A stretch of DNA of 64,000 nucleotides, from contig SVGL01000002.1 of the NCBI GenBank assembly GCA_015056325.1, forward strand, positions 124,001 to 188,000, written 5' to 3'. The DNA comes from Clostridiales bacterium. Its GTDB lineage: Bacteria > Bacillota > Clostridia > Christensenellales > Aristaeellaceae. The translations under genes and the position numbers were made by a program. The notes below the pieces were generated by a model. The model worked only from the letters and a program-made list of their open reading frames with translations. It was not told where the DNA came from and searched no databases. This document shows positions 55,931-64,000 of the stretch, piece by piece (the first letter of the stretch is position 1; every line of letters starts with the position of its first letter).

Positions 55931-55959
55931 AAGGGCCGCGTCCAATGGACGCGGCCCTT
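55931..55959 (-). terminator. Terminator of the SH3b protein gene
   Basis: Perfect 13-bp stem AAGGGCCGCGTCC / GGACGCGGCCCTT with a 3-nt loop; the following T-tract is short (TTTCT), so efficiency is uncertain. Confidence 0.75.
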
Positions 55960-55971
55960 ATTACGTTTGGT

Positions 55972-58900
55972 TTACTTCTTGCCGGCAGGGCAGTGGTTGT
56001 ATGCGTACTCGACTGCCTCTGCATGGCTGGGGCTGACCTCCTTGGACTCGTGGCCCTGGGAGTTGTAGAAGTGCAGACAGACCTGACCGTCCATGCCATT
56101 GTTGGAGATGGTATCGTCACCGTGCTGCATGCCGTCCAGGGATGCAGCGAAGGTGCGGGTACCGACGGTCACCAGGCAGGGACGACGCTGCCACTTGTTG
56201 CCGGTGACGATCTCCTGCAGGTTGTTCACGCCGTAGATCTCGCACAGGCGCTTGGAGTCCTCCGCGGTGAGCGTCTCGATGTCCATATGGCGGCTGCCAG
56301 CCTGACGGTAAGCCCACCAGACAATCTTGGTCTTCACATCGTAGATCTTGAACTTGGCGCCACGGGGCAGCAGCTCCTGGATGCCGCCGGTGAACCAGTC
56401 GATCTTTTCCACCGGGTAGAAGTAGAACTCCAGGTTGCTGGTATCGCCGGCCTTGTCCGGACGGGTGCCGAAGAGGGCATGCTGGGTCGCGCTGTCAGCG
56501 GTACCGGTAGCAGACAGATCATTCAGGGTCTGGAAGATCTTGACGGCTTCCTTCACCTGAGTGGTGTAGCTGGAGGTCAGTGCGCCCGTGTAGTAGCCCT
56601 GGTTGATCAGCTCCTGCACCAGGTTGCGCACGCGGTACTGGGTGGTCTCGCTGTTGGTCATGCCCTGGTACAGGGTGACATAGGAGACCATCTGCTGCAT
56701 CTTGGGCGCAGCGGAGAGATCGCCCAGGTCGGGGGTGGGCGTGGGCAGGGGATCGCCGTTCTCCTCACACTTGGCAACCATGTCGGAACGGATGTAGCCA
56801 AACTCTCCGGACGGGGTCTTGATGCGGTACCAGTAGTAGCCGCCGCCCTGGATTTCGTCAGCGTAGTAGGGCAGGACAGTACCCAGGCGCAGCTGGTCGA
56901 AGGCAGTGCCGGCCGCAGCATTGCGGATGTACACATTATCCATGATCAGCTTCACATAGCCCAGGTTGGCATCGGGATCAGGCACAACATCGGGGTTGGC
57001 CGCAATGTAATCCTGATACTCCTTGAGGGTCATGACCTTGACATAGTCGCCATGCACCCACAGGGGCTGATCCTTGTACACAATGCTGTACCAGGTGACA
57101 GTACCCTGGTCCTTGGTGTCGTTGAAGGGCATCACAGTACCCTTGTCCACCTGATACGCCTTGGCAGATTCCTGGGAGTAGCTCTGGCGCAGGTTGACGT
57201 CGTCATAGGTGGTGATCACGTAGGAGGTCAGGATGGAACCGGGATCGGGGGTCTCCTCCGGCACGCCGTTGCCGGCCAGGTAGCTTTCCTCCTGGGTGGG
57301 GGAGAGCTTGAAGGAGAAGTCACCGTGGACGTAGCCGATCTGGCCATTCACGTTGATGGGATACCAGCGAACCTGGCCCTTGTCAACCGCCAGGCCGACC
57401 ATGGGCCACACAGAGCCCTTTTCCAGCTGCTTGTAGATCTTGTTGCCGGCAGGCTCGTTGCGGAAGTTGACCTTCTCGTCATTGATCATGACGTAGCCGA
57501 AGGCAGAGAGGGTCGGGCCGGGGGTGACAGTGCTGCCGGGGGTCAGCTGCAGCAGCAGAGACGCAAGCACATAGCCATCCTGGCCGTTGTAGTTGATCTT
57601 GTACCAGCCATTGACCTTGTCAGCAGGGATGACCTTCACATCCACGATGGTATTTGCGGGAATGACGGACAGAATCTTGCCGTCGTAGCCCGCAGCATCG
57701 CGGAAGTTGGTATTCTTGAGCAGCTTACCCTTCACGTCGGTCACTTCTTCGCCGCCGGGAGTGGGGGCAGGCGTGACTTCGACGCCGCCCTCATCGCAGG
57801 TAACGGCGCAGTCGCCGCGGATGTAACCGATCTTGCCGTCAGCCGTCTTGACGTGGTACCAGCAGTACTGGCCCTTCAGGCCGGCAGGCGTAGTCGGTCC
57901 GATGATGGGCAGGATCAGGTCTTCAGGCAGCTGCACCTGGGAAGCGCCCAGGGGCTCGGTGCGCAGGTTGACATTATTCTTGGTGAGGCGGATGTAGCCG
58001 TAGATAACGCTGCCATCGGTGGGCGGGGTAGGCGTGGGCTCTTCGGGGCCAACGATGCTGCCGCCTGTGGAGGTGCACACGCGCACGCAGTCACCGCGCA
58101 GATAACCAACCATGCCCTTGTAGCGCACCATATACCAGGTGTAGCTGGTGCCGCTCTCCGCGGGGCTCTTGGCCGGGCCCACGCAGGCCAGGATGGTGTT
58201 CTTGGGCACCTGAGCCACGGAGGTCTCGCCGGGATTGATGCGCAGATTCACGCCGCTCTTGGTGGTGATGATGTAACCGTAGGGACTCTCGGGCACGGGG
58301 GCAGGAACGATGTTGCCATCCTCCACCTTCATGACCTTGATCATGTCCGCACGGACGTAGTAAATTGCGTGGGTGCTGGCATAGAACACGGGATACCAGT
58401 CATAATTACCGTTGAAGATGGGTTCACCGGTGATGCGCAGCAGGCTGCCCTTGCCCCTCCACTGGACGACGCTGTCGCCGCCGGCAGTGGCACGCAGGTT
58501 GACAGAGTCCACATCCAGCTGGGCATAGCCGAAGACTTCAGGGGCAGGCAGGCTGTCCTCATCCACGCTCAGCACGCGGATGAAGGGGGACTGGATATAG
58601 CCCACGCGGCCGTTGTAGAGCACCTTGTACCAATGCTCAGCATCGATCCTGGTGGGGATGGACAGCAGCTGCACCACCGTGCCGGCATTCAGCTTGCCAT
58701 AAATGGAGGCAGTCACGCTGTCGCTCATGCGGAAGTTGACCTTATCCGTGGTGATCTCGCCGGTGGCGTTGATGGTCACCTCGCCGTCACCCTGGTCGGG
58801 CAGATCGGGGGCGGGGGTCTCGCCGCTGATGATACGCACAAAGTTGGACTGGATGTAGCCCACCTCGCCATTGTAGCGCACGCGGTACCAGTCGTTGACG

Positions 58901-59997
58901 CTGATCTGATCCGGCACAGTCAGAACCTCGAACTGCTGGCCGGGATTCAGCTTGGCAATCACGTTGGCGTTGTTGGTATCCTTGTGGGCCTCACTGCGGA
59001 AATTGACCTTCTCGGTGGTCACCTCGCCCATGACGCCGGTCACCTCAGTGCCAAAGCCGGGGTTGGGCGTGGGCGTCTCGCCGCTGAGAATTGTCACGAA
59101 GGTCGCCTGAATATAGCCCACCTCGCCATTGTAGCGCACGCGGTACCAGTCGTTGGCAGTGACCTGATCCGGCACGGTGAGGATTTCAAACACCTGACCT
59201 GGATTGAGGACGCAGAGCACATTCGCATTGTTGCCATCCTTGCGGGGCTCGGAGCGCATGTTCACCTTTTCGGTGTTCACCTCGCCCATGACGCCGGTCA
59301 CTTCGGTGCCGAAGCCAGGGTCAGGCGTGGGCTCAGAACCTGCATCCAGCAGATCAATCAGGTCACAGAAAACATAGCCGGTCTTCCCGTTGTGGCTGAC
59401 GCGGTACCAGCCATTGGTATCGCCTTCCTGGGGGATGCCGGTGATGGCTACCTCCGTGCCCTTGGAAATCACGCCGTACACGCTGCCAGTCTTCGTGGAA
59501 GGCTCGGAGCGGAAGTTGGAATCCACCGTCACCTTGCCCTTGGCGCCCACGACTTCCTTGCCGTTGTACTCAGTATGGCCGTCGCCCTCCTGCAGCGCGT
59601 CATCCACGGAAGGCTGCATACCCGTGCCGTCATCGCCGTCATCGGGGGTGCCCTGGCCGTTCAGGTAGTTCTGCACCTCTTCCGCAGTCATCTCACGGAA
59701 GTAGTCCTCCAGGATGTAGCCGACATAGGTGCGGCCGTTGGGGATGGGATGCCCGGTGCTGACCTTGAACCAAAGGTCGCCCTTGATGGACACCTCTTCG
59801 ATAATCTGGGCCACATGCCCCTTATCTACCTTGAACCAGATATCCGCCGCCATACCCTCGTCGGTCTTGCGGACGTTGACCTGGTTCTCCGTCACCACGC
59901 CGTAGCGCACCGTCGCACCCTCCGCCATCGCGCCCGTAGGCACGATCAGCGCAAGGCACATCACGATTGCCAGCAGCTGCTTCCACATACGCTTCAT
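55972..59997 (-). CDS. Secreted cell-wall protein with 12 SH3b repeats, PG-binding and unknown C-terminal domain
   Basis: 1341 residues from the ATG at 59997 (GAGGTGA upstream). Signal peptide MKRMWKQLLAIVMCLALI, cleavage near AMA/EG. Twelve SH3b-type modules, each with a V-N-x-R motif (VNVR, NFR, VNMR, VNFR twice, VNLR three times, NFR, VNFR, VNLR, VYIR), fill about 25-1085. About 1115-1180 is a PG_binding_1 domain (RVRNLVQELINQGYYTG then AVKIFQ). The C-terminal 150 residues carry HMDIETLTAEDS and GQVCLHFYNSQGHES, a domain I know from clostridial wall proteins but of unknown activity. It probably binds peptidoglycan. Consensus promoter, monocistronic. Confidence 0.9.
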   Translation of the reverse strand: MKRMWKQLLAIVMCLALIVPTGAMAEGATVRYGVVTENQVNVRKTDEGMAADIWFKVDKGHVAQIIEEVSIKGDLWFKVSTGHPIPNGRTYVGYILEDYFREMTAEEVQNYLNGQGTPDDGDDGTGMQPSVDDALQEGDGHTEYNGKEVVGAKGKVTVDSNFRSEPSTKTGSVYGVISKGTEVAITGIPQEGDTNGWYRVSHNGKTGYVFCDLIDLLDAGSEPTPDPGFGTEVTGVMGEVNTEKVNMRSEPRKDGNNANVLCVLNPGQVFEILTVPDQVTANDWYRVRYNGEVGYIQATFVTILSGETPTPNPGFGTEVTGVMGEVTTEKVNFRSEAHKDTNNANVIAKLNPGQQFEVLTVPDQISVNDWYRVRYNGEVGYIQSNFVRIISGETPAPDLPDQGDGEVTINATGEITTDKVNFRMSDSVTASIYGKLNAGTVVQLLSIPTRIDAEHWYKVLYNGRVGYIQSPFIRVLSVDEDSLPAPEVFGYAQLDVDSVNLRATAGGDSVVQWRGKGSLLRITGEPIFNGNYDWYPVFYASTHAIYYVRADMIKVMKVEDGNIVPAPVPESPYGYIITTKSGVNLRINPGETSVAQVPKNTILACVGPAKSPAESGTSYTWYMVRYKGMVGYLRGDCVRVCTSTGGSIVGPEEPTPTPPTDGSVIYGYIRLTKNNVNLRTEPLGASQVQLPEDLILPIIGPTTPAGLKGQYCWYHVKTADGKIGYIRGDCAVTCDEGGVEVTPAPTPGGEEVTDVKGKLLKNTNFRDAAGYDGKILSVIPANTIVDVKVIPADKVNGWYKINYNGQDGYVLASLLLQLTPGSTVTPGPTLSAFGYVMINDEKVNFRNEPAGNKIYKQLEKGSVWPMVGLAVDKGQVRWYPINVNGQIGYVHGDFSFKLSPTQEESYLAGNGVPEETPDPGSILTSYVITTYDDVNLRQSYSQESAKAYQVDKGTVMPFNDTKDQGTVTWYSIVYKDQPLWVHGDYVKVMTLKEYQDYIAANPDVVPDPDANLGYVKLIMDNVYIRNAAAGTAFDQLRLGTVLPYYADEIQGGGYYWYRIKTPSGEFGYIRSDMVAKCEENGDPLPTPTPDLGDLSAAPKMQQMVSYVTLYQGMTNSETTQYRVRNLVQELINQGYYTGALTSSYTTQVKEAVKIFQTLNDLSATGTADSATQHALFGTRPDKAGDTSNLEFYFYPVEKIDWFTGGIQELLPRGAKFKIYDVKTKIVWWAYRQAGSRHMDIETLTAEDSKRLCEIYGVNNLQEIVTGNKWQRRPCLVTVGTRTFAASLDGMQHGDDTISNNGMDGQVCLHFYNSQGHESKEVSPSHAEAVEYAYNHCPAGKK

Positions 59998-60088
59998 CCT
60001 GGTCACCTCATCATTTTCGCCCAAAGGCGAACTTCCTTTTGGGTCTCCAAATGCGCCTCTGCCAAAAGGGCGGAAGGCATCTGAATAC

Positions 60089-60117
60089 ATTCTATTACAA
60101 AATCGTTACCATGTCAA
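60089..60117 (-). promoter_or_regulatory. Promoter of the SH3b protein gene
   Basis: Minus-strand TTGACA (60117-60112), 17-bp spacer, TAGAAT (60094-60089). The 59998-60316 gap otherwise holds only the divergent promoter and small CCAAAAG repeats. Confidence 0.85.
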
Positions 60118-61477: not shown

Positions 61478-63715
61478 TTACTTGCCGAACAGGCTGTTCA
61501 CCGCGTTGATAACCGCATTGGAGGTGTAGGTAGCACCGGCCACCACATCAGCATTCTCGAAGGGGCCCTTCTTGCCGATGAACTGGCTCAGGAACGCTTC
61601 CTCGGTGCAGGGCTTCGCGATGGCTTCCGTCTCACCGGAGGCGTCCACAACCATGGTGGCAATGGTGCCATCGGCATTCAGGGTGATCGTCACCTTCACG
61701 TCGGACAGCAGGCCCTTCGCGGAGGCGGTCTTCGCATCGCCAGCGGGGGCAGCTTCCTCAGCAGCGAACAGGCTGTTCACCGCGTTGATCACAGCATTGG
61801 AGGTGTAGGTCGCGCCAGACACAACCTCAGCGTTCTCGAAGGGACCCTTCTTGCCGATGAACTGGCTCAGGAACGCTTCTTCGGTGCAGGGCTTCGCAAT
61901 CGCTTCGGTTTCGCCGGAGGCGTCCACCACCATCGTCGCGATGGTGCCGTCCGCATTCAGGGTGATCGTCACCTTCACGTCGGACAGCAGACCCTTCGCA
62001 GAGGCGGTCTTCGCGTCACCAGCGGGGGCGGCTTCCTCAGCGGCGAACAGGCTGTTCACCGCATTGATCACAGCGTTGGAGGTGTAGGTCGCGCCGGACA
62101 CAACCTCAGCATTCTCGAAGGGGCCCTTCTTGCCGATGAACTGGCTCAGGAACGCTTCCTCGGTGCAGGGCTTCGCAATCGCTTCGGTTTCGCCGGAGGC
62201 GTCCACCACCATCGTCGCGATGGTGCCATCGGCATTCAGGGTGATCGTCACCTTCACGTCGGACAGCAGACCCTTCGCGGAGGCAGTCTTCGCATCACCT
62301 GCGGGAGCGGCTTCCTCAGCGGCGAACAGGCTGTTCACCGCGTTGATCACAGCATTGGAGGTGTAGGTCGCGCCGGCCACCACATCAGCGTTCTCGAAGG
62401 GGCCCTTCTTGCCGATAAACTGGCTCAGGAACGCGTCTTCGGTGCAGGGCTTCGCGATCGCTTCCGTTTCGCCGGAGGCGTCAACAACCATGGTGGCAAT
62501 GGTGCCGTCCGCGTTCAGGGTGATCGTCACCTTCACGTCGGACAGCAGACCCTTCGCGGAGGCGGTCTTCGCGTCACCAGCGGGAGCGGCTTCCTCAGCG
62601 GCGAACAGGCTGTTCACCGCGTTGATAACCGCATTGGAGGTGTAGGTAGCACCGGCCACCACATCAGCATTCTCGAAGGGGCCCTTCTTGCCGATGAACT
62701 GGCTCAGGAACGCTTCTTCGGTGCAGGGCTTCGCAATCGCTTCGGTTTCGCCGGAGGCGTCAACAACCATGGTGGCAATGGTGCCGTCCGCGTTCAGGGT
62801 GATCGTCACCTTCACGTCGGACAGCAGGCCCTTCGCGGAGGCAGTCTTCGCATCACCAGCGGGAGCGGCTTCCTCAGCGGCGAACAGGCTGTTCACCGCG
62901 TTGATAACCGCATTGGAGGTGTAGGTCGCGCCGGCCACCACATCAGCATTCTCGAAGGGGCCCTTCTTGCCGATGAACTGGCTCAGGAAGGCGTCTTCGG
63001 TGCAGGGCTTCGCGATCGCTTCCGTTTCGCCGGAGGCGTCAACAACCATGGTGGCAATGGTGCCGTCCGCATTCAGGGTGATCGTCACCTTCACGTCGGA
63101 CAGCAGGCCCTTCGCGGAGGCAGTCTTCGCATCACCGGCGGGAGCGGCTTCCTCAGCGGCGAACAGGCTGTTCACCGCGTTGATCACAGCATTGGAGGTG
63201 TAGGTAGCACCGGCCACCACATCAGCATTCTCGAAGGGGCCCTTCTTGCCGATGAACTGGCTCAGGAACGCTTCTTCGGTGCAGGGCTTCGCAATCGCTT
63301 CCGTCTCGCCGGAGGCGTCCACCACCATCGTCGCGATGGTGCCGTCCGCGTTCAGGGTGATCGTCACCTTCACGTCGGACAGCAGGCCCTTCGCGGAGGC
63401 AGTCTTCGCGTCGCCAGCGGGGGCGGCTTCCTCAGCGGCGAACAGGCTGTTCACCGCGTTGATAACCGCATTGGAGGTGTAAGTCGCGCCAGCAACCACA
63501 TCAGCATTCTCGAAGGGGCCCTTCTTGCCGATGAACTGGCTCAGGAAGGCTTCCTCGGTGCAGGGCTTCGCGATGGCTTCCGTCTCACCGGAGGCGTCCA
63601 CCACCATGGTCGCGATGGTGCCGTCCGCATTCAGGGTGATCGTCACCTTCACGTCGGACAGCAGGCCCTTCGCGGAGGCAGTCTTCGCATCGCCTGCGGG
63701 GGCGGAGGCTTCCAC
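61478..63715 (-). repeat. Eight 279-bp in-frame tandem repeats
   Basis: Period 279 bp, one FMN_bind domain plus linker per unit. Units differ by scattered synonymous changes and a few residues (CTEEAF or CTEDAF; NADVVAG or NAEVVSG), with blocks of shared variants that suggest recent unequal crossing-over or gene conversion. Assemblers may have collapsed or misplaced copies. Confidence 0.93.
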
Positions 63716-64000
63716 AGAGGGCTGCTCGGCGCCGGCCACAGCAATGCTGTTGATGGCCTTCACGACAGTGTTGGAGGTAATGGTTGCGCCAGACAGAACA
63801 TCGAACTCCATCACCGGCACAGTCTTGCCGATGAACTGGTTCACAAAGTTGGCGTCCTCGCCGCAGCGGGTGCCGTAGCCCTGGGTCTCGCCGGAGGTAT
63901 CCATGGTCAGGGCGGTGATGGTGCTGTTCTCGTCCACGGTGAAGTTCACCTTCACGTCGGACTGGAAGCCAGCGGCGGACACGCTGTAATCGCCGGCAGC
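61478..64000 (-). CDS. Multi-FMN-binding-domain protein (at least nine FMN_bind repeats), 5' end beyond window
   Basis: The frame stays open to the window edge (A-A-G-D-Y-S-V-S-A-A-G-F-Q), so the N-terminus lies outside. Visible: one divergent FMN_bind domain with DVLSGATITSN, then eight almost identical 93-residue domains. Each has SDVKVTITLNADGTIATM, GETEAIAKPCTE, FIGKKGPFEN and the flavinylation motif V-[AS]-G-A-T-Y-T-S-N. In NqrC and RnfG the Thr of [ST]GAT carries FMN attached by ApbE. Domains are joined by AAEEAAPAGDAKTASAK linkers; the protein ends NSLFGK without an anchor. Presumed extracytosolic electron-transfer protein; apbE is not in the window. Confidence 0.88.
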   Translation of the reverse strand, partial: AAGDYSVSAAGFQSDVKVNFTVDENSTITALTMDTSGETQGYGTRCGEDANFVNQFIGKTVPVMEFDVLSGATITSNTVVKAINSIAVAGAEQPSVEASAPAGDAKTASAKGLLSDVKVTITLNADGTIATMVVDASGETEAIAKPCTEEAFLSQFIGKKGPFENADVVAGATYTSNAVINAVNSLFAAEEAAPAGDAKTASAKGLLSDVKVTITLNADGTIATMVVDASGETEAIAKPCTEEAFLSQFIGKKGPFENADVVAGATYTSNAVINAVNSLFAAEEAAPAGDAKTASAKGLLSDVKVTITLNADGTIATMVVDASGETEAIAKPCTEDAFLSQFIGKKGPFENADVVAGATYTSNAVINAVNSLFAAEEAAPAGDAKTASAKGLLSDVKVTITLNADGTIATMVVDASGETEAIAKPCTEEAFLSQFIGKKGPFENADVVAGATYTSNAVINAVNSLFAAEEAAPAGDAKTASAKGLLSDVKVTITLNADGTIATMVVDASGETEAIAKPCTEDAFLSQFIGKKGPFENADVVAGATYTSNAVINAVNSLFAAEEAAPAGDAKTASAKGLLSDVKVTITLNADGTIATMVVDASGETEAIAKPCTEEAFLSQFIGKKGPFENAEVVSGATYTSNAVINAVNSLFAAEEAAPAGDAKTASAKGLLSDVKVTITLNADGTIATMVVDASGETEAIAKPCTEEAFLSQFIGKKGPFENAEVVSGATYTSNAVINAVNSLFAAEEAAPAGDAKTASAKGLLSDVKVTITLNADGTIATMVVDASGETEAIAKPCTEEAFLSQFIGKKGPFENADVVAGATYTSNAVINAVNSLFGK

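Follow-up and report, generated by a model that had tools for sequence, protein, structure and literature searches.

A probable RnfG subunit with eleven putative flavin acceptor sites is encoded beside apbE in a Clostridiales bacterium

Results

The multi-domain protein and its tandem units

The window analysed here, a stretch of 64,000 nucleotides from a Clostridiales bacterium of the Aristaeellaceae (GenBank assembly GCA_015056325.1, contig SVGL01000002.1, positions 124,001 to 188,000), carries at its right-hand end a single open frame on the minus strand, which encodes 840 amino acids and runs past the window edge (Table 1). An earlier note, made from the sequence alone, had read this frame as a chain of at least nine FMN_bind domains with a motif for covalent attachment of flavin mononucleotide (FMN) in every unit. 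On the whole contig the frame (L018:5479-8892, minus strand) gives 1137 amino acids counted from the first ATG, and AAGGAGG directly 5' of the second ATG makes 1128 amino acids the likely size of the protein, referred to below as expanded RnfG. The full protein matched Pfam PF04205 (FMN_bind) in 12 stretches, well beyond chance given the whole-protein E-value of 9.7e-126 (411 bits), and a profile built in this analysis likewise gave 12 segments; nine stretches and nine acceptor threonines lie inside the window, as the earlier count had it. The 1128-amino-acid form has eleven acceptor threonines (positions 88, 246, 361, 461, 554, 647, 740, 833, 926, 1019 and 1112). With its 12 stretches and an N-terminal hydrophobic helix read by eye from the sequence, expanded RnfG belongs to the multi-flavinylated FMN_bind class, marked by two or more such domains on a single extracytosolic chain. 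Domain content and predicted fold are among the features that the sequence shows. One sheet half (residues about 122-176 of the 1137-amino-acid form) is without an acceptor of its own and is preceded by the motif helix with Thr 88 (1128-amino-acid form), a pair that looks like a circularly permuted unit inserted in the first domain. TonB, ChAPs and similar Pfam names were set aside, as no stretch passed alone.

Table 1. Features of the expanded RnfG gene and its surroundings, in window numbering
Feature	Position	Strand	Remark
C-terminal 840 amino acids of expanded RnfG	61478..64000	-	gene extends to window-equivalent 64864
FMN_bind domain	63743..63970	-	FDVLSGATITS, Phe at flavin-stacking position
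Tandem FMN_bind unit 1	63437..63664	-	ADVVAGATYTS
Tandem FMN_bind unit 2	63158..63385	-	ADVVAGATYTS
Tandem FMN_bind unit 3	62879..63106	-	ADVVAGATYTS
Tandem FMN_bind unit 4	62600..62827	-	ADVVAGATYTS
Tandem FMN_bind unit 5	62321..62548	-	ADVVAGATYTS
Tandem FMN_bind unit 6	62042..62269	-	AEVVSGATYTS (Ser variant, Glu for Asp)
Tandem FMN_bind unit 7	61763..61990	-	AEVVSGATYTS (Ser variant, Glu for Asp)
Tandem FMN_bind unit 8	61487..61711	-	ADVVAGATYTS, stops 2 amino acids short of C-terminus
apbE	window-equivalent 65012-66070 (outside window)	-	next gene upstream of expanded RnfG
Rubrerythrin	around apbE and expanded RnfG		
Two proteins with peptidoglycan-binding or SH3 repeats	around apbE and expanded RnfG		
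Transglutaminase-like protein	around apbE and expanded RnfG		

Tandem Repeats Finder reported an array at 61486-63705 (period 279, 8.0 copies, 93% matches), reflecting eight FMN_bind units spaced by exactly 93 amino acids. Among the 28 unit pairs, synonymous divergence (dS) averaged 0.285 (0.114-0.511) and nonsynonymous divergence (dN) 0.0077, a ratio of 0.027 (simple count over 75 codons without path averaging), with 8-22 silent substitutions per pair. The units are under strong purifying selection and, as dS is high compared to dN, old enough to have diverged silently while the protein was held constant. Chance or an artefact as the source of the repeats was rejected on the basis of the array, the PF04205 score and the silent differences between units. 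The units share 75-77% identity with those of the genus relative G016 (among the matches listed) and are less like these than like each other within the chain, which points to homogenisation.

Motif variants and flavin loading

Six of the eight units contain ADVVAGATYTS and two AEVVSGATYTS, so that the number of repeats with Ala before GAT had been counted exactly, and the acceptor Thr is indeed present in all eight. The two Ser copies, previously suggested as an internal control for flavinylation of the Ala sites, cannot serve as such because they differ at the motif Asp as well: each motif type deviates once, the Ala copies retaining Asp and the Ser copies carrying Glu. The published motif is D-x-x-[S/T]-G-A-[S/T]; in one enzyme loss of the Asp mattered little and a change of G to A or A to V halved the yield (PMC12052999), and the Asp has been termed essential elsewhere (PMC10722498). 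A Ser-to-Ala exchange was found in neither article, and 'AGAT' had no match in either, as far as their text was available to us (parts, as for all articles cited here by PMC number). The sequence of Acetobacterium woodii RnfG up to Thr185, which bears FMN (PMC11889175), is QAITGST, so RnfG tolerates deviation from the motif. Among single-domain RnfGs directly behind rnfD, AGAT occurs in 3/43 and ASAT in 1/43 readable sequences; six of 49 rows were unreadable at the motif (L158, L176, L177, L179, L214, L220), some of them probably not RnfG, and one of the three AGAT examples, L151, has a very long branch in the tree described below. As A-G-A-T is also found in RnfGs that have one domain and lie at the usual site in the operon, Ala before GAT is probably tolerated. 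The tetrads in 20 sequences of the genus were SGAT (55), TGAT (29), AGAT (15), TRAT (3), SRAT (3), SYAT (2) and nine singletons; the acceptor column of the 115 aligned genus domains (5 more gapped) held 111 T, 2 S and one each of C and V, and Thr or Ser in 272/272 domains of family and order loci (11 gapped). From these motifs, most sites are expected to be FLAVINYLATED, i.e. loaded with FMN. A separate variant was seen in a genus relative (L055:9672-12872, plus strand), whose six tandem units alternate between T-R-A-T and S-R-A-T where x-G-A-T would be expected, which offers a natural experiment on the motif glycine.

Relation to RnfG and the rnf operon

The RnfG family TIGR01947 matched expanded RnfG with 161.6 bits as a sum over several domains (cut-off 102); the best single place in the genome search had an E-value of 3.9e-8 (among the matches listed), a modest value explained by the interruption of domain 1. 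Three relatives align to TIGR01947 over 2-185 of 187, and expanded RnfG has the membrane helix and the Tyr-type flavin domain with the motif Thr in common with them but carries the insert in addition. An identity as PplA, the FMN_bind-type lipoprotein of Gram-positives that acts as a flavoprotein in extracellular electron transfer, was rejected (NF041941, 35.9 bits against a cut-off of 325). The assignment of the protein as an RnfG subunit is well supported. The tandem FMN_bind domains and linkers of the earlier proposal stand, and an RnfG type in a genome without an operon rnfG had not been foreseen.

Both the gene start, an ATG, and the Rnf genes, which the earlier note had suggested looking for, were located. 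The genes rnfC, D, E, A and B, each above its NCBIfam cut-off, are on contig C55, a different contig from expanded RnfG, and RnfD has its own motif DAVTGAT. As rnfD and rnfE overlap, the operon is without rnfG: no such gene lies between them in this genome, and the rnf contig had no FMN_bind match. RnfD was found in 16/18 genomes of the genus, with a D-E overlap of 8 bases in 16/16 and a gene between rnfD and rnfE in 0/16. An RnfG-type FMN gene directly follows apbE in 18/18; it has at least three GA[TS] motifs in 16/18, the others being G015 (two before the contig end) and G008 (one). Each genus genome yielded one RnfG N-terminus, that of the apbE-linked gene (among the matches listed). A whole-protein scan of the genome contigs gave no relatives, whereas a profile of N-termini did (best 80 of 175); the nearest named ones are metagenome-assembled genomes whose titles often name ruminant gut samples, in line with the gut habitat assumed before.

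The apbE gene ends 120 bases before the first ATG of expanded RnfG on the same strand, and its product of 352 amino acids matches PF02424 over the full length (1-266 of 266) with 272.3 bits, above the cut-off. This is the only PF02424 match in the genome; a genome lacking apbE, which according to the earlier note would have spoken against flavinylation, is therefore rejected. A second apbE was seen in G004 and G014 only.

Arrangements in the family and order

In the order, the canonical D-G-E arrangement with a single-domain RnfG is common, and D-E gaps are bimodal: they lie between -123 and +19 bases where G is missing or fused to D, and reach at least 398 where G is in place. In the family, expanded G was found in place (L141, 925 amino acids; also L163 and L164, both truncated where the region examined ends), just before rnfC (L190, L191), or behind apbE with RnfD on another contig (e.g. 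L225, L226, L228). In two family members (L243, L244), apbE, expanded G and rnfCDEAB share one contig; as these and the before-rnfC forms deviate, the position between D and E is typical for rnfG and not defining. RnfD-RnfG fusions of 516-566 amino acids occur at ten family loci, representing nine genes (L162, L165, L169, L172, L175, L176, L177, L187 and L192, with L144 identical to L192), and two further fusions in another family (L158, L159). In all 27 family genomes outside the genus with neither G between D and E nor a fusion, a TIGR01947 match was found elsewhere, so the G missing from its place was found; the open frame there has at least 388 amino acids in 25/27, with 348 in G163 and 211 in G202 (all among the matches listed). 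Around 20 displaced G genes, apbE was present in 14 regions, 13 of which have it upstream in the same orientation.

In a tree of 84 hand-picked RnfG-type rows without a non-RnfG outgroup (long branches L151, L154, L160), the apbE-linked and before-rnfC forms group with one ordinary RnfG (L125) in 41 rows whose support, 82/93, falls short of the usual threshold; a subset of 24 rows containing this genus (99/100) and the fusions (nine family genes, 100/100) form supported groups. Two RnfD genes, one with G right behind, were seen in G131 (L145, L146), G162, G195, G198, G217 and G221, and L138 (G082), from another family of the order, is also without rnfG between D and E.

Discussion

From the RnfG homology, the operon without room for rnfG and the linkage to apbE, the protein is probably the RnfG subunit of Rnf, relocated beside apbE and with its single flavin domain multiplied to eleven acceptor sites for covalent FMN. 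The N-terminal RnfG part, made up of one membrane helix and a flavin domain of the Tyr type, would dock on RnfA/E/D and accept electrons from the [2Fe-2S] centre in the membrane, just as RnfG does in known Rnf complexes; the neighbouring ApbE would flavinylate the C-terminal string of domains. Electrons could then pass between FMN groups as the flexibly tethered beads collide, and so reach secreted FMN_bind reductases, besides or instead of returning to RnfD and oxidised nicotinamide adenine dinucleotide (NAD+). In A. woodii, electrons pass from RnfA/E via FMN on the mobile RnfG to RnfD (PMC11889175), and a chain on RnfG could divert electrons there. More tentatively, and with somewhat less than even confidence, Rnf may here act as an outward-wired respiratory pump, in which ferredoxin electrons pass through expanded RnfG and about ten tethered flavins to secreted flavoenzymes, coupling sodium or proton pumping to extracellular acceptors; with RnfG moved next to its flavin transferase, chain length and loading would then evolve apart from the pump. 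The flavin wire through a thick wall that was first put forward remains hypothetical as to conduction, length and wall crossing.

Several points weigh against assigning the chain to Rnf in this way. Flavin occupancy, outward electron flow and, from the missing rnfG and the synteny, assembly with Rnf are steps that we infer. With a draft genome of 84.9% completeness and 5.3% contamination, an ordinary rnfG may have escaped assembly, except at the site between D and E. In G008 (L063:4057-4662, minus strand, L062) the apbE-linked RnfG is single-domain and stops after 201 amino acids; a multi-domain fragment with three motifs is found at the end of another contig. An inserted unit, about 90 amino acids long, splits the first domain of expanded RnfG, and G011 and G002 share this interruption. 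G131 and G162, both among the 27 family genomes, carry an additional RnfD followed by G, and since the tree comprises RnfG-type rows only, it cannot test RnfG against other FMN_bind proteins.

That the chain is a stand-alone multi-flavinylated protein with an RnfG-like anchor, fed by another membrane electron donor while Rnf works without RnfG, appears unlikely. It would fit the separate contigs of the expanded gene and the rnf genes in this genome, and also L192, where an RnfD-RnfG fusion is accompanied by a separate 1144-amino-acid multi-FMN protein after rnfB, so that the chain is not always part of RnfG, a further point against the assignment. However, loss of the FMN on RnfG (T185A) abolishes Rnf function in A. 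woodii (PMC11889175), an Rnf without G would be odd in 16/16 genomes of a genus, and L243 and L244 show apbE, expanded G and rnfCDEAB in synteny. No PepSY_TM or DUF4405 donor reached the cut-off in any of the 18 genomes of the genus, and G004 had a single PepSY_TM match below it, interrupted by stops; NapH-like, MsrQ-like and DsbD-like donors were not searched.

A similarly improbable explanation sees in the eight tandem units a stalk, or a spacer in the wall, whose redox function is diminished or gone, with electrons carried by the N-terminal RnfG part alone. It draws on the flavin-stacking residue, Tyr113 in A. woodii RnfG, whose exchange Y113A abolishes Rnf there (PMC11889175). The N-terminal domain of expanded RnfG keeps this Tyr, whereas Leu takes the place of the Tyr or Phe of RnfG in each of the eight tandem units, and Met does so in 5/5 units of G016. 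In 88 aligned non-first domains of the genus the column reads F 46, Y 14, L 11, A 8, M 8 and V 1, i.e. a non-aromatic residue in 28/88 (8 from expanded RnfG itself), compared to 1/110 in family and order loci (F 101, Y 8, M 1; 70 further domains gapped, some genes counted twice). Large cell-wall proteins nearby would also suit a spacer. On the other side, the acceptor Thr is kept in every unit and in nearly all aligned genus domains, the units are under strong purifying selection, and the Y113A counterpart Tyr14Ala in SaFMN3-D2 remains flavinylated with a rise in fluorescence (PMC10339131). As Y113A is dead and Tyr14Ala is still flavinylated, the tandem flavins may differ in potential from the Rnf flavin. 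Among the hints against a simple wire, or for some added twist to it, the Leu is the strongest. Least probable is a copy number produced by assembly, with a true array that is longer, shorter or strain-mixed: the genome is a draft and the contig ends inside the gene in 6/17 genus relatives, so that array lengths are often minima, but the array is internal to a 230-kb contig, its units are distinguishable by their silent substitutions, and long arrays recur (700-1066 amino acids in ten other closed genus frames, up to 1323 in the family).

FMN_bind proteins with several domains are a published class with up to 13 sites, and multi-flavinylated RnfGs, including ones from Christensenellales, have been described, with the proposal that electrons leave Rnf by a second exit there (Meheust et al. 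2021, PMC8238504). Expanded RnfG resembles these in its RnfG homology, its several FMN_bind domains and the proposed exit; it differs in that they sit in RNF clusters, whereas it lies outside the operon beside apbE throughout a genus. Some of them carry a multihaem domain. SaFMN3 and CbFMN4 (Tong et al. 2023, PMC10339131) have 3 and 4 domains with a stacking Tyr in contrast to the Leu of the tandem units, and no Rnf link appears in the available part of that article. RnfGs of Clostridium tetanomorphum and A. woodii (PDB 7zc6, 9eri) have one flavin domain in about 190-207 amino acids. Circularly permuted and beads-on-a-string models of multi-FMN proteins (Huang et al. 2024, PMC11334425) are alike in their string of beads and in a displaced motif helix comparable to the first-domain insert; in the part available they are not tied to an rnfG-less Rnf. 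A literature search at title and abstract level, which excluded the supplementary tables of the eLife paper and left subscription literature mostly uncovered, found no earlier report of rnfG-less operons, RnfD-RnfG fusions or apbE-linked RnfG; a term search within PMC12174285 had no matches either. What the sequences would add to the known multi-domain proteins and multi-flavinylated RnfGs is the putative RnfG identity of the chain in a genus with rnfG-less operons, the apbE-linked gene being the only RnfG N-terminus found per genome (among the matches listed). If the assignment to Rnf is true, genetics names the electron donor, the chain standing in for a subunit of a well-understood pump, and the 'flavin wire' becomes a testable claim on the destination of Rnf electrons in gut bacteria. 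The family also provides natural variants: the number of flavin sites varies from one to eleven, RnfD may be fused to RnfG, and some chains are proteins of their own.

Other genes in the window and genome

Further FMN_bind genes were found at six places on contigs C29, C34 and C58; two products combine FAD_binding_2 and one C_GCAxxG_C_C with FMN_bind, and N-termini read by eye were signal peptide-like in 5/6, the sixth having an anchor helix. The minus-strand gene at 55972-60090 encodes a wall-type protein of 1372 amino acids with six SH3_3 stretches and a peptidoglycan-binding domain (scan of the part in L018), and a long frame (55945-60084), probably a shadow, overlaps it on the plus strand. 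Beyond the window, L018:11326-11838 (plus strand, window-equivalent 67325-67837) encodes a secreted-looking protein of 170 amino acids without a Pfam family, of which no second copy was seen in the loci examined; from its perfect DAVSGAT motif it is a candidate for a new ApbE substrate.
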